Below the pieces are notes generated by a model. It did not search any database. It worked only from the letters and a program-made list of their open reading frames with translations, and was not told the origin of the DNA. The position numbers and the translations under genes are program-made. From Enorma burkinafasonensis (GTDB lineage: Bacteria > Actinomycetota > Coriobacteriia > Coriobacteriales > Coriobacteriaceae), in NCBI RefSeq assembly GCF_902150035.1, contig NZ_LR597502.1, forward strand, positions 124,001-188,000: a DNA stretch of 64,000 nucleotides, written 5' to 3'. Below are positions 9,893 to 17,311 of the stretch, piece after piece (within the stretch, counting starts at the first letter, position 1; every line of letters begins with the position of its first letter).

Positions 9893-9920
9893 TTGACTAT
9901 GTGCGCTTCCGGCGTGTGAT
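9893..9920 (+). promoter_or_regulatory. Candidate promoter of the surface protein
   Basis: TTGACT (9893-9898), a 16-bp spacer and TGTGAT (9915-9920) precede the ATG at 9946 by about 25 bp. The -35 is good and the -10 is only partly consensus. Confidence 0.45.
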
Positions 9921-9945
9921 GGCCTGGCGAGAAGGATGGTGGGGC

Positions 9946-11976
9946 ATGAGGAAGAGATTCGTGGCAATGCTGGCGTGTGTGTTGGCAGCGTTGCTGCTGT
10001 TGCCGGCGACGGCGTTCGCGGATGTCTTTACGATTACGATTCCCGAGCGCAGCGATGCGATTGTGTCGGTGACCGTGGGTGGCGTAAAGTACGAAGAGGG
10101 CGAGACGATTAGCGTTGAGGCTGGCGCGCAGGTGAGCGCCCAAGCCATGCAATACAGCTCCACGGGAAGCATGTTCACCGGCTGGTCCGTGACGCCTGAG
10201 GGCTCGCTCGCGCTTGAGGATACGAAGATCGTTAAGTTCACCATGCCCGAGCAAAACATCACGCTCGAGCCGGTCATCAAGCAGTTTGAGGCGAATGCCG
10301 GCGTCGATGCGAACGGTGTGCTCACATGGGAAGAGCCGGTTGCCGGGTATGTGAGCCGCGTATACGTGCTACCCGCCTCTTCCTCCGATGCGATCACGAG
10401 TCGCGTTGCGGAAAGTGGGTGGGTCAGTGCGGAGCAGGGGCGCTATACGGTCGATGTCCGCGAGCTTCTTGAGGAACAGGCCGATGCAGACGAGCTTTCG
10501 GAAGGTGCTGAATACAGCATCTATCTGGAGTACGTTGCCAACGAGGCCGAACTCAGCCCCAATGGTATCAGGGGGTCGTACTTCAACGCCGCAACGTATA
10601 CCTATCACGCTGTCGACTATCATCTCGCCGTCGAGCGCGTCGATGTGACGAGCGCGAATGCGGCGGATGTGCTCGGCGACGGCACGGTGTCTTACGACCC
10701 GGACACGCAGACACTCACGCTTAACGGCGCGAAGGTTACGCAGGGTGAGTACAAGGGTGCGGCCATCTACTGCGAAACGGGCAATCTCGGCATTGAGCTG
10801 GTAGGAGACAATCGGGTTGTCGGTCCAGACCTAGATAGCGGAAATCCGGTTTACAGTCGAGGCATCTACGTCTACGACGGGACGTTGAACATCTTCGGTG
10901 ACGGTAACCTCACGGTCGAGGGTGGCGATGTTTCGGTTCCGTATGGCATGGCCTATTCATATGGTATGTGGGCTGCTGGGGATGTTGAGATCTCGAGCGG
11001 AACGGTGACTGCGACGGGCGGTGCGGTAACGAACGGCAACGGTACTGCCGGCAGTTACGGTATCTCTGCCAACCAAGACGTCGTCTTCTCCGGCGGTACC
11101 GCTGAGGTGGCGGGAGGAGACGCGAACACACTGAGCTACGGCGCGTACGCTGCGCTCGGTGACATCGCGTTTACTGGTGGGAAGCTCACGGCTACGAGCG
11201 GTCAGGTCGGAACGCAGATTCAGCCGGAGAGCCACGCGCTTTACGGATTCAGCGGTGTTACCGTTGGCCCGCAAGAGGGCGAGATGATTACCGTTGCCGC
11301 GGGTATGACGGTTGGAGACGCTGTCGATCTCAACGATTCGCCGTTCCGGGAAGAAGCAGAGATTGCCGACGACATTGACGGCAAACGTTGTGTTCTCATG
11401 GAGGCTACTGAGGCAACAGCGCCGCTCTACGAGCTGCGCGTCCAGGGCGGCACGGGCGGCGGCATGTACGCCGAGGGTACCGAGGTGACTATCTCCACCG
11501 TTGAGTTCGACGAGAACGGGCATTTCACCGGCTGGTACGTGGTGGATACGGGTGGCGGCGACTTTGAGGATTGGCACGACGCTACGACCACCTTCACGAT
11601 GCCGGCGAATGACACGAATGTCGTTGCTGGCTATGAGGAGCATACGTTGGTGCACCACGACGCTAAGGCGCCCACCTGCACCGAGCCCGGCTGGGAAGCG
11701 TACGTCACCTGCGAAGGGTGCGCCTATACGACGTACAAGGAGATTCCCGCCACAGGTCATGCGTACGAGGACGGAGTGTGCGTCGACTGCGGCAAGGAGG
11801 ATCCTAACTACGTTGCGCCTGAAGATCCAGCTGAGCCGTCCGATGGAGGTTCCGATTCTGAGGGCGACGGTGCGATTCCCGCAACGGGCGATGCTGCCGC
11901 GCTGGCGGTAGGTGTTCCTGCTGCGTTGGGAGCGGTAGCGCTTGCAGCTGGCGCGGTTGCTCGCCGTCGCCGGTAG
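9946..11976 (+). CDS. Secreted surface protein with IPATGD sorting signal
   Basis: 676 residues. Signal peptide: MRKRFVAMLACVLAALLLLP then ATAFA. Residues about 20-110 form an InlB/bacterial-repeat-like fold (FTGWSVTPEG, FTMPEQNITLEPVI), repeated near 500-560 (FTGWYVVDTGGG, FTMPANDTNVVAGY). The centre (about 230-450) is glycine/beta-strand rich (GIYVYDGTLNIFGDGNLTVEGG), like parallel-beta carbohydrate-binding repeats. Two Cys pairs occur in the region CTEPGWEAYVTCEGCAY..CVDCG. The C terminus has IPATGDAAA, a hydrophobic stretch and RRRR, a sortase-type anchor. Codon use is less GC-rich than the neighbours, suggesting transfer. A function in adhesion is an inference. Confidence 0.85.
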   Translation: MRKRFVAMLACVLAALLLLPATAFADVFTITIPERSDAIVSVTVGGVKYEEGETISVEAGAQVSAQAMQYSSTGSMFTGWSVTPEGSLALEDTKIVKFTMPEQNITLEPVIKQFEANAGVDANGVLTWEEPVAGYVSRVYVLPASSSDAITSRVAESGWVSAEQGRYTVDVRELLEEQADADELSEGAEYSIYLEYVANEAELSPNGIRGSYFNAATYTYHAVDYHLAVERVDVTSANAADVLGDGTVSYDPDTQTLTLNGAKVTQGEYKGAAIYCETGNLGIELVGDNRVVGPDLDSGNPVYSRGIYVYDGTLNIFGDGNLTVEGGDVSVPYGMAYSYGMWAAGDVEISSGTVTATGGAVTNGNGTAGSYGISANQDVVFSGGTAEVAGGDANTLSYGAYAALGDIAFTGGKLTATSGQVGTQIQPESHALYGFSGVTVGPQEGEMITVAAGMTVGDAVDLNDSPFREEAEIADDIDGKRCVLMEATEATAPLYELRVQGGTGGGMYAEGTEVTISTVEFDENGHFTGWYVVDTGGGDFEDWHDATTTFTMPANDTNVVAGYEEHTLVHHDAKAPTCTEPGWEAYVTCEGCAYTTYKEIPATGHAYEDGVCVDCGKEDPNYVAPEDPAEPSDGGSDSEGDGAIPATGDAAALAVGVPAALGAVALAAGAVARRRR

Positions 11977-12047
11977 GGATGCTGTGGGGTAGCGCCCGGG
12001 TCGCGCTGGGTTAATCGGTAGGCCGAGAGTTTAGACAGATGGAAAAT

Positions 12048-12085
12048 GCGGGGAGGCGCTATGTGGTGGTGCCTCCCTGCTTTGC
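12048..12085 (+). terminator. Probable terminator after the surface protein
   Basis: GCGGGGAGGC (12048-12057) pairs with GCCTCCCTGC (12071-12080), with one G-U pair, and is followed by TTTGCT. Confidence 0.55.
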
Positions 12086-12116
12086 TGAGTGCGGGCAGAG
12101 AATTTGCCATTATAAT

Positions 12117-12130
12117 CGAACACATGTTCT
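12117..12130. promoter_or_regulatory. LexA (SOS)-like box in the hicAB promoter
   Basis: CGAACACATGTTCT contains the inverted repeat GAACA-CA-TGTTC and fits the Gram-positive LexA consensus CGAAC-RNRY-GTTYC except at the last base. It lies between two TATAAT hexamers (12111-12116 and 12139-12144) in an AT-rich promoter, where a repressor would block transcription. The same 14-mer with one change occurs at 16098-16111. Confidence 0.6.
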
Positions 12131-12245
12131 AAATATGATATAATCTACTACAAAGACAAACAGGCTTTAGGGTGATTAGGCAGGCAAAATCGTAACAGCA
12201 AATTAAGTCAATATGTATTGATTTGTGGTATCAATAGGGGTAGAA

Positions 12246-12437
12246 ATGAAGTATCGCCTACTGAAGAAGCTTATCACCGAGCACGCTCGCGAACGGGGTC
12301 TAGATGTTGAATGGTCTGAGGGAGCGAATCATATGAAAGTGCGTGTCGGAAGCGTGAAGACGACGATTCCCCGGCATAACGAGGTGAACGAGATAACCGC
12401 ACGCTCCATCCTGCGTTATCTCTTTGGAGGTAGATGA
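12246..12437 (+). CDS. hicA: HicA-like mRNA interferase toxin
   Basis: 63 residues, the normal HicA size. ATG is preceded by AGGGG. The fold pattern MKYRLLKKLITEHARERGLDVEWSEG, then NHMKVRVGSVKTTIPRH, then EITARSILRYL matches the YcfA/HicA double-stranded-RNA-binding-like fold, with the catalytic histidine in GANHMK. HicA proteins cleave mRNA during translation. The stop overlaps the partner's start (ATGA). Lower G+C than the surroundings marks this as an acquired module. Confidence 0.8.
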   Translation: MKYRLLKKLITEHARERGLDVEWSEGANHMKVRVGSVKTTIPRHNEVNEITARSILRYLFGGR

Positions 12438-12814
12438 TGTCCGCTCAAAATGTGCATGCAAAAGTTACACGCAATATGGGCTGGTGGGCCATTTCGGTCG
12501 ATGAGATTCCCGGACTGTTTTCTCAAGCTCGCCGTTTAGATCAGGTTGATGCGATGGTTCGCGATGCCGCGGCGATGCTTGGTTTTGAGGTCGCGAATGT
12601 GGAGATCGTTCCCATCCTTGACGCCGATGCTCAAGAGATGCTCGAGGAGCTTGAGAGGGCTCGTCATGATGCGGAGGAGAAGCAGAGGGCCGCATCCGAT
12701 CTTACCCGTCAGGCAATCAGCCGATTTCGTGGGGAGGGGTTAACGCTTCGGGACATAGCTTCCTTGGTTGGTCTTTCGCAGCAGCGCGTCTCCGTGCTCA
12801 TGAAGGAAGGCTAG
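12434..12814 (+). CDS. hicB: HicB-like antitoxin with C-terminal HTH
   Basis: 126 residues, overlapping hicA by 4 bp with GGAGG upstream. Residues 1-65 form the partial RNase H-like HicB fold (HAKVTRNMGWWAISVDEIPGLFSQARRLDQVDAMVRDAAAMLGF). A helical linker follows (AQEMLEELERARHDAEEKQRAA), then a C-terminal HTH (GLTLRDIASLVGLSQQRVSVLMKEG) that would bind the module's own promoter. HicB neutralises HicA and represses the operon. ATG 12437 is an alternative start one codon later. Confidence 0.75.
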   Translation: MMSAQNVHAKVTRNMGWWAISVDEIPGLFSQARRLDQVDAMVRDAAAMLGFEVANVEIVPILDADAQEMLEELERARHDAEEKQRAASDLTRQAISRFRGEGLTLRDIASLVGLSQQRVSVLMKEG

Positions 12815-15211: not shown

Positions 15212-16012
15212 CTAGATGCCCGTAGCTTTTTCGAGCGGCGACGCCGCTGCTTGGTTCAAGCAGGACAGTAGCTGCTCGAGAATCTGCTGTCGCCGGTTGA
15301 TGAACATCTCCATGACCTGGTAGTGCTCGGTCTCCTCATAAGTGACCTCATGGATGCGCCCGTCATCGAACGAGAGGATGCGGGCGCCGGGCATGCCTAT
15401 CAGGATGGGGGAATGCGTGGCGATGACGAACTGCGCGCCGTGCTGCGCGAGCAGATGGAGCTCGTAGAGCAGCGTGAGCTGGCGCATGGGGGAAAGCGCC
15501 GCCTCGGGCTCGTCGAGCAGGTAGAAGCCGTTGTCGGTGAACGTGTTCTGCACCAGCGCAAGGAAGCTCTCTCCGTGCGATTGCTCGTGGAGCGACTTGC
15601 CACCGTAGCGCGCGTAGTAGATCTCCTTCGGCGTGAGGGATAGACCGTCGTCGCGATACGACTCGGCGGCGCTGGCGACGTTGTAGAAGCTTTCCGCGCG
15701 CAGGAAGTAGCTCGTTTTGGGACGGCGAATGCTCCTGGTGAGGTGGACCGCCTCATGGAGCGAGCCGTGCGAGTCGTACGTGGTGAAGCGGTAGCCCTGG
15801 GAGCCGCCTTCGGCGTTGAGCCCAAAGGCCACCGCCATGCTTTCGAGCAGGGTTGACTTACCCGACCCGTTCTCGCCGACGAACAGGGTGACAGGGGTGG
15901 TGAAATCGATGGGCCTATCGAAGTGGAGGGCGGGGATGCCGTGGGTGTAATCGCCGCTTGGGACGACATCCCAATCGATGGAGACACGGGTGATAAACGG
16001 CTGGATGTCCAT
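15212..16012 (-). CDS. AAA/ABC-type ATPase (single-domain, RecF/OLD-like)
   Basis: 266 residues. Walker A is GENGSGKST near residue 45, the ABC-signature-like segment is HEQSHGESFLALV near 143, Walker B is GFYLLDEPEAALS near 162, and the switch histidine is in IATHSPIL near 198. No zinc hook or coiled coil is present, so it is not full-length RecN or Rad50; this compact class is often called AAA_21. It is divergent from the DUF1848 gene, and the LexA-like box at 16098-16111 lies between the two. A role in DNA or RNA quality control is inference only. Confidence 0.82.
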   Translation of the reverse strand: MDIQPFITRVSIDWDVVPSGDYTHGIPALHFDRPIDFTTPVTLFVGENGSGKSTLLESMAVAFGLNAEGGSQGYRFTTYDSHGSLHEAVHLTRSIRRPKTSYFLRAESFYNVASAAESYRDDGLSLTPKEIYYARYGGKSLHEQSHGESFLALVQNTFTDNGFYLLDEPEAALSPMRQLTLLYELHLLAQHGAQFVIATHSPILIGMPGARILSFDDGRIHEVTYEETEHYQVMEMFINRRQQILEQLLSCLNQAAASPLEKATGI

Positions 16013-16097
16013 GGCGCCTCCTTTGTTCGCGCAGTTCCATCATATTCTGCGGTGCGGACATGGTTGTGGCTCGGGTGCCCCAATGTGGGAATGATGG

Positions 16098-16111
16098 CGA
16101 ACAGATGTTCT
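16098..16111. promoter_or_regulatory. LexA (SOS)-like box upstream of the DUF1848 gene
   Basis: CGAACAGATGTTCT, inverted repeat GAACA-GA-TGTTC, differs at one position from the box at 12117-12130. It sits 9 bp before TATAAT (16121-16126), in the spacer region of that promoter, and also about 85 bp upstream of the divergent ATPase gene. Confidence 0.6.
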
Positions 16112-16120
16112 TACTATTGG

Positions 16121-16126
16121 TATAAT
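16121..16126 (+). promoter_or_regulatory. -10 box (TATAAT) for the DUF1848 transcript
   Basis: A perfect TATAAT, in the context GGTATAATCGAC, lies downstream of the LexA-like box. The resulting 5' leader would be about 220 nt and contains the palindromes at 16173-16311. Confidence 0.55.
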
Positions 16127-16172: not shown

Positions 16173-16263
16173 CTGGTAGTGGTGGGTAATTTGCATATTT
16201 TGCAAATTACCCATCTTGGCATTTCTGCTGGTAGTGGCCAGTAATATGCATGTTTTGCATATT
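16173..16263. repeat. Two direct repeats, each with a TTTGCA-type palindrome
   Basis: CTGGTAGTGG followed by a palindrome occurs twice, exactly 55 bp apart (16173 and 16228). The first palindrome is TGGGTAATTTGCA-N5-TGCAAATTACCCA (16183-16213, 13-bp arms); the second is AATATGCA-N5-TGCATATT (16243-16263). The gap 16013-16354 otherwise has no gene. Confidence 0.75.
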
Positions 16264-16354: not shown

Positions 16355-17311
16355 ATGATCATCAACACTGGCGGGCGGACGGATACCGTGCAGTATTACA
16401 CGGACTGGCTGCTCAGGCGGTTTGCCGAGGGCTACGTGCTGGTGCGGAACCCGCGCTTCCCGGAGAAGGTCACGCGCTACGAGCTCGACCCGTCGGTGGT
16501 GGACTGCGTCGTGTTCTGCTCGAAGAACTACGCGCCCATCCTTTCGCACCTGCACGAGATCACGGACCGCTTCAACACGTATTTCTTCTACACCATCACC
16601 GCGTATGGGCGCGACATGGAGCCCGGGGTTCCGGATGTCGATGCGAGTATCGAGACGCTTATCGAGCTCGAGCGCATCGTAGGGCGCGAGCGGATCGTCT
16701 GGCGCTATGACCCGGTGCTCTTAAGCGAGCGCTACACCACGGAGGCGCATCGGCGCACATTCGACGATATGGCCCGCCGCCTGGCGCCGCATGTGAGCCG
16801 CTGCGTGTTCAGCTTCGTGGAGCCGTATCGAAAACTCGACCGGAACATGCCCGAGCTTTTGCCCCTTATGGAGGAAGAGCGCATCTACATGGCGGAGCTT
16901 TTGGGCGGCATCGCGCGCGAGCGCGGGCTACGCTTGCAGGCGTGCGCGACGCGAAAGGATTACTCCGCTTATGGCATCGCACAGGCGGGCTGTGTGACCC
17001 TGGAGGCGCTCGGCGCGGCGAACGGCGTCACATGCAGGCAGCTCGCACATCGCGGCATGCGTGAGGGCTGCGCCTGCATGGAGATGCGCGACATCGGGGC
17101 GTACAACAGCTGCCCCAACGGGTGCCGGTATTGCTATGCGAACGCCGACGCTCGCGGAGCGGCGAGGGCGTTTCGCGACCAACACGACCCGGAGTTCCCG
17201 CTCATGCTGGGGCATCTCATGCCGGGTGATGTGGTGACGCAGGCAACGCAGCGGAGCTACCTTGCGGCGAGAGCACGGGCGGCTGCGGAGCAAGAGCGGC
17301 TTGAGCTGTAA
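16355..17311 (+). CDS. DUF1848 family putative radical-SAM-like protein
   Basis: 318 residues, ATG behind GGGGGAGG. The opening MIINTGGRTDTVQYYTDWLLRRF and VRNPRFPEKVTRYEL are characteristic of DUF1848. FCSKNYAPILSHL and YFFYTITAYGRDMEP follow, with a C-terminal cysteine cluster at about residues 237-262 (CACMEMRDIGAYNSC, then CRYCYAN). The family is thought to bind an iron-sulfur cluster and is related to spore-photoproduct-lyase-like radical SAM proteins; its reaction is unknown. The LexA-like box upstream suggests DNA-damage control. Confidence 0.85.
   Translation: MIINTGGRTDTVQYYTDWLLRRFAEGYVLVRNPRFPEKVTRYELDPSVVDCVVFCSKNYAPILSHLHEITDRFNTYFFYTITAYGRDMEPGVPDVDASIETLIELERIVGRERIVWRYDPVLLSERYTTEAHRRTFDDMARRLAPHVSRCVFSFVEPYRKLDRNMPELLPLMEEERIYMAELLGGIARERGLRLQACATRKDYSAYGIAQAGCVTLEALGAANGVTCRQLAHRGMREGCACMEMRDIGAYNSCPNGCRYCYANADARGAARAFRDQHDPEFPLMLGHLMPGDVVTQATQRSYLAARARAAAEQERLEL

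Follow-up and report, generated by a model that had tools for sequence, protein, structure and literature searches.

A LexA-type box in the promoter region of a divergent actinobacterial hicAB operon

The promoter of a toxin-first hicAB operon contains a LexA-type box of the same kind as those at lexA and recA of its genome, and the sequence evidence makes control of hicAB by LexA, taken alone, very probable. The full proposal is that a LexA-repressed promoter (P1) would supply both toxin and antitoxin when triggered by DNA damage, and that a second promoter (P2), shut by HicB, would supply mainly antitoxin; we hold this whole statement with moderate confidence, and the antitoxin-only output of P2 is its weakest step. 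From the elements described below we infer LexA binding, induction, the start sites, an antitoxin-only P2, and toxicity. Coordinates refer to the window, the whole 64,000-nucleotide stretch of DNA that was analyzed.

A divergent HicAB pair

Genes were called with a codon model, since spurious frames in high-G+C DNA otherwise mislead. The operon consists of hicA (12246-12437, + strand), encoding a 63-amino-acid toxin with the HicA fold, followed by hicB (12434-12814, + strand), encoding a 126-amino-acid antitoxin, and the two genes overlap by 4 bp. The initial annotation had described a HicAB-like module here, and fold, profile, and operon layout all support that description. The AlphaFold2 model of HicA (pLDDT 88.7) has a helix, three strands, and a helix (H-E-E-E-H), the alpha-beta-beta-beta-alpha arrangement of a dsRBD-like fold. 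Its four best Foldseek matches in the PDB were all HicA entries, including 6hpb, 6g26, and 5yrz (probability 0.85-1.00, E 0.02-0.4), and the profile of the HicA alignment matched E. coli HicA 6hpb (E 0.0012). The protein also matched phrog_353, annotated as "toxin" (7.5e-6). The window HicA had no match to the Pfam family HicA_toxin (PF07927) at E ≤ 1, and seven of the 13 members of its alignment matched that family weakly (best E 4.5e-4). His29, within a G-x-x-H motif, was invariant in 15/15 sequences, and we take it to be equivalent to the known catalytic histidine of HicA.

HicB matched phrog_8245, "HicB-like antitoxin" (2.7e-17). PDB matches to its model were weak, and the model contained a HicB-like N-terminus, a long helix, and a sigma70-region-4-like helix-turn-helix (HTH), so that a HicB core, a DNA-binding C-terminus, and a gene overlapping hicA were all present. 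The HTH of this type distinguishes the protein from HicB of E. coli K-12. Members of the subfamily also occurred in Thermophilibacter, Bifidobacterium, Gardnerella, Propionibacteriaceae, Rhodococcus plasmids, and Gordonia phages; the HicAB pairs of Gordonia phages and the PHROGs phrog_8245 and phrog_353 belong to the same HicA and HicB subfamily, with HicB identities of 30-43% among the matches listed. By sequence and fold, the window pair is a divergent actinobacterial HicAB subfamily of predicted toxicity. Both genes had atypical codon use and low G+C (52% for hicA and 55% for hicB vs 68% for the window), which points to acquisition.

The LexA box and promoter P1

The box CGAACACATGTTCT (12117-12130, no strand assigned) lies 115 bp upstream of the hicAB operon start. 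As the initial annotation had noted, it agrees at 13 of 14 positions with CGAACRNRYGTTCG, which we take to be the LexA box consensus of Gram-positives; the sole mismatch is the last base. The flanking TATAAT hexamers described in the same annotation are indeed present at 12111-12116 and 12139-12144. The first forms part of the palindrome ATTATAAT (12109-12116, no strand assigned) and is unlikely to serve hicAB as its -10. Only the second carries the extended TG, and it is positioned as a promoter directed at hicAB requires.

The host genome (2.23 Mb in 48 contigs, 99.96% complete), whose nearest named relatives are Coriobacteriaceae including Collinsella, contained a single LexA_DNA_bind match. 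Its lexA is preceded by three boxes spaced 28 bp apart (GAACGGATGTTC, GAACAGTTGTTC, and GAACAAATGTTT), its recA by CGAACAGCTGTTCG, and its Y-family polymerase and ruvC genes by GAACATCTGTTC-type boxes. The hicAB box is of the same type as all of these. A genomic LexA box of another sequence, named in the initial annotation as grounds for abandoning its claim, was thus not what we found at lexA and recA. Boxes at lexA and recA of relatives were broadly concordant (10 lexA and 8 recA loci, the genome's own included), and the lexA boxes of Thermophilibacter were more variable.

We scored sites with a matrix of 21 distinct boxes from Coriobacteriaceae lexA and recA loci and the genome's own Y-family polymerase and ruvC genes; the hicAB box and the Thermophilibacter boxes were not part of the training set. 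The hicAB box scored 21.0 bits, within the training range of 17.5-24.8. Only the sites at 12116 and 16097-16112 (21.7 bits) exceeded 12 bits in the window, and the next best scored 11.7. Looser patterns were less distinctive. With up to two mismatches, CGAACRNRYGTTCY matched the window 25 times vs 20.3 expected, which is not significant, and its exact form occurred only at 12117 and 16098. Genome-wide, the generic core GAACNNNNGTTC had 28 sites vs 37 for a reversed control; this lack of enrichment counts against LexA control. The one-mismatch pattern had a modest genome-wide excess (25/28 vs 17/20 for the control). The distinctive part is the subset GAACANNTGTTC, 12 of the 28 GAACNNNNGTTC sites, together with where sites are placed. 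It is thus the exact matches, and where they lie, that carry the signal, not the generic core.

The promoter element next to the box points the same way. The extended -10 of the putative P1, TGATATAAT (12136-12144, + strand), begins 5 bp past the LexA box. The window contained two exact copies of TGNTATAAT vs 0.07 expected (0/100 shuffles gave two), and each begins 5-6 bp past a LexA box, one copy at each of the two strong boxes that the window has. Across 64 family genomes, GAACNNNNGTTC followed by TATAAT within 1-9 bp had 22 matches vs 1 for the reversed control, and the RhuM-Fic and higBA loci of the same genome have an identical box-plus-TATAAT layout upstream. We consider it very unlikely that AT-rich intergenic DNA produced this palindrome by chance and that LexA has no effect on hicAB. 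The unenriched core, the boxless majority of hicAB homologs, and other exact boxes that seem fortuitous, such as one within rlmN coding sequence (by eye), would fit such an origin, but simulation gave about 0.01 sites of this strength per 64 kb, and 8e-5 were expected in 200 bp even at local AT-rich composition. The exact spacing to a near-consensus extended -10, common to two other boxed promoters, also argues against chance.

The P1 transcript would start near 12151, and the box would cover the -35 region. LexA should therefore repress P1 by blocking RNA polymerase, and DNA damage should release it. The promoter scan returned no sigma-70 site at P1 under its rule because P1 has no recognizable -35, a point against the proposal.

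A strong hairpin (12048-12080, + strand; stem of 15 pairs; -33.5 kcal/mol and z -5.3 for 12040-12100) separates the hicAB promoter from the surface-protein gene upstream of it. It is possibly a terminator; a terminator scan by a T-run rule found none. The intergenic stretch from there to hicA has 39-47% G+C. We rejected a role for the box in serving a leftward gene, as the neighbor at 9901-11976 is on the + strand and points at the box, and no minus-strand gene was supported there. An Rfam search of five loci gave no match.

To place the box among relatives we compared 63 hicAB loci, including that of the window, eight of 16 plasmid matches, and five of 21 phage matches. We excluded second copies (L038-L043, L045-L048, L053) as well as a weak partial match (L044); L057 and L127 were short of upstream DNA, and three upstream regions were identical copies. 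An exact core box lay ≤450 bp before hicB in 5/63 loci vs 0 for the reversed control. The five were the window, the near-identical Collinsella An268 and An307, an uncultured Collinsella, and a prophage contig. The Collinsella boxes scored 11.4 bits in the two near-identical species and 16.9 bits in the other, all below the window box, were situated between divergent genes, and had no TATAAT downstream, so their support for LexA control is weak. In the hicAB of the prophage contig (L128, 1031-1686, IMG/VR), the box is the perfect SOS palindrome TCGAACGTGTGTTCGA and lies 85 bp upstream of hicA. No box was found ≤450 bp before hicB in the Thermophilibacter and Bifidobacterium loci or in one Collinsella-type locus (L042/L061). 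The Gordonia phage loci differ as well, with no exact LexA box ≤260 bp of hicA in any of five. At 5/63 loci we rejected the box as an ancestral part of hicAB, and on this distribution it is lineage-specific. LexA control of every hicAB in the genome was also rejected, as the 3.2-kb locus of a second hicA (C19:61869) contained no GAACNNNNGTTC.

A same-genus relative (L038/L057) has lost the P1 region and the 5' half of hicA and retains hicB as an orphan, which, like the rarity of the box among the 63 loci, counts against the proposal. This broken hicA, the homologs in Gordonia phages, Rhodococcus plasmids, and prophage contigs (one with the perfect palindrome above), and the atypical codon use and low G+C of both genes would also suit a decaying selfish passenger, in which the box is a mobile-element leftover serving no host purpose. 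We consider that origin rather unlikely, since here both genes are intact, their promoter elements are present, and we recognized no phage gene among the adjacent DUF389, DUF1848, and AAA genes; it would in any case be compatible with LexA control.

Promoter P2 and the two-promoter proposal

An inverted repeat, ATTGAT-N7-ATCAAT (12217-12235, no strand assigned), precedes hicA and is a candidate HicB operator, retained with small changes in Coriobacteriia relatives. It is overlapped by TTGATT-N17-TAGAAA (12218-12246), which would constitute P2: a -35 TTGATT (12218-12223, + strand), found at the same place in homologs with 17-18 bp to the -10, and a -10 TAGAAA (12241-12246, + strand) that overlaps the hicA ATG. 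We tabulated this region for 20 loci hand-picked from the 63. A P2-like -35/-10 pair with 17-18 bp spacing overlapped or closely preceded the start of hicA in 17/20, and TAGAAA occupies the site where 11/20 have TAGACT. Counterparts with a TTGACT-type -35 and a TAGACT -10 occurred in Bifidobacterium, Propionibacteriaceae, Janibacter, Gordonia phages, and prophages. Between repeat and -10 lies AGGGG (12236-12240, + strand), by sequence the likely hicA ribosome-binding site, which we expect to be carried by the P1 mRNA only.

What P2 makes depends on where its transcript begins. In all six tabulated Coriobacteriia loci the hicA ATG overlaps the -10 or follows it by 2 nt, and the P2 mRNA is therefore predicted to start inside hicA; the next in-frame hicA starts are at codon 30 or later, beyond His29. 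In most other actinobacterial loci (the 11/20 with TAGACT) the hicA start codon lies 6-8 nt past the -10, which predicts a leaderless hicA mRNA from which toxin could still be made. Leaderless translation is common in Actinobacteria. The window also has a rival P2 -10 candidate, TGGTATCAA (12226-12234). LexA might then bind and hicAB be damage-inducible while P2 yields toxin too, through a leaderless hicA mRNA or a TGGTATCAA start, and LexA would merely lift a balanced operon. The spacing in those 11 loci and the frequency of leaderless translation favor such an arrangement, but with the -10 start falling within hicA in all six Coriobacteriia loci we regard it as unlikely.

The reading that we prefer is a division of labor between the promoters. 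The locus would be a chromosomal type II toxin-antitoxin operon, toxin first, run by two promoters. P1 mRNA would include the hicA ribosome-binding site and so give both toxin and antitoxin, and the older P2, lying under the likely HicB operator, would be shut by HicB. Because its transcripts would begin at the hicA start codon or within it, P2 would make mainly antitoxin. Upon damage, RecA-triggered LexA cleavage would open P1, HicA would cut mRNA and slow growth during repair, and HicB from P1 and P2 would reset the module.

In E. coli, hicAB is reported to have a P1 under CRP-S/Sxy that gives both proteins and a HicB-repressed P2 that gives antitoxin only (PMC11594946, PMC6957337). As described there, the K-12 operon resembles that of the window in its toxin-first order, an upstream P1 under a stress regulator, and a downstream P2 with a HicB operator by the hicA start; it differs in that P1 is activated by CRP-S/Sxy, whereas the P1 of the window has a LexA box. 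For a P2 of the E. coli type, the -35/-10 pair and the inverted repeat are present and largely conserved here, and the start site and product are predictions.

Other boxed loci and known SOS-linked systems

The other strong LexA box in the window, CGAACAGATGTTCT (16098-16111, no strand assigned; 21.7 bits), belongs to a unit separate from hicAB. An extended -10, TGGTATAAT (16118-16126, + strand), follows it and heads toward a DUF1848 gene (16355-17311); the promoter does not face the AAA ATPase gene (15212-16012) on the other strand. The leader between this promoter and DUF1848 contains a perfect 12-bp inverted repeat, GGGTAATTTGCA...TGCAAATTACCC (~16184-16213). The C-terminus of the DUF1848 product has a CX3CX2C motif and a weak radical-SAM match, and the product is possibly an SOS-linked repair enzyme.

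Genome-wide, exact CGAACANNTGTTC gave 14 rows representing 12 sites at 11 loci. Four are classical SOS loci (recA, lexA, Y-polymerase, and ruvC) and four are toxin-antitoxin or defense loci (hicAB, higBA, RhuM-Fic, and BREX pglX-pglZ). The remaining loci are the DUF1848/AAA region of the window, a small ORF by a dipeptidase-like gene, and a site within rlmN (the last two by eye). We set aside the sites in rlmN coding sequence (by eye), at rpoB, on contigs C23 and C17, and at other GAACNNNNGTTC matches as probably fortuitous. The higBA locus (L026, 2963-3644; G000:C19:44862) is toxin-first and carries the same LexA box as hicAB, with TATAAT directly after it (Pfam HigB, 2.1e-12). RhuM-Fic (L023, 3042-4244; G000:C16:112041), which matches PADLOC PDC-S23 at 4.9e-121, begins ~210 nt past CGAACACGTGTTCggtttaTGATATAAT and has nearly the promoter of hicAB. 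At L035 (2962-6001; G000:C43), twin LexA boxes precede the C-terminal part of BREX pglX, which appears split, and then pglZ. Twin one-mismatch boxes (CGATCATATGTTC) also lie before a single ORF (L113, 2588-5201; G000:C32) that joins a MutH/Sau3AI-like nuclease, a label that we assume for it, to a C5 cytosine DNA methylase. Another family genome (L147, G042) has a RelE-like toxin ORF (by eye) ~70 nt past a LexA box with TATAAT, which is followed by a second box.

The recurrence of toxin-antitoxin and defense genes among boxed loci is suggestive. We raise only tentatively, and with some doubt, the idea that LexA has been co-opted in the Coriobacteriaceae lineage as a class-wide switch for toxin-antitoxin and anti-phage modules (hicAB, higBA, RhuM-Fic, BREX pglX-pglZ, and the fused restriction-modification gene). 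The LexA promoter of hicAB would there take the place of the E. coli CRP/Sxy promoter.

Other type II toxin-antitoxin pairs are known to be LexA-controlled. According to the reports, yafNO of E. coli has a LexA box over its promoter and belongs to the SOS regulon (PMC2814082), and higBA of Caulobacter crescentus and IncC plasmids is tied to the SOS response or ciprofloxacin (PMC13384398, PMC8265657). The former differs from the window hicAB in its RelE-like toxin, family, and proteobacterial box, and the latter are HigBA and not HicAB, though the host genome has a boxed higBA as well (L026). Titles and abstract openings of the papers listed yielded no report of LexA control of hicAB, a 2024 HicAB review nowhere mentions LexA, SOS, or DNA damage, and "Hic" is absent from the main text of an SOS meta-regulon study of gut Gram-positives (PMC3998124). 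The initial annotation's view that such control would be unusual is thus fair for hicAB, but it does not extend to toxin-antitoxin pairs in general.

If the proposal is true, HicAB joins the list of toxin-antitoxin families under SOS control, here in gut Actinobacteria, a group whose SOS response has received little study. The two-promoter logic would be kept under another master regulator, and the regulator of P1 looks exchangeable. The proposal predicts that fluoroquinolones or mitomycin C raise hicA expression from a single promoter whose position is given to the base. Should the wider pattern hold, growth arrest and anti-phage defense in the Coriobacteriaceae lineage would be armed together by DNA damage, including that from phage replication.
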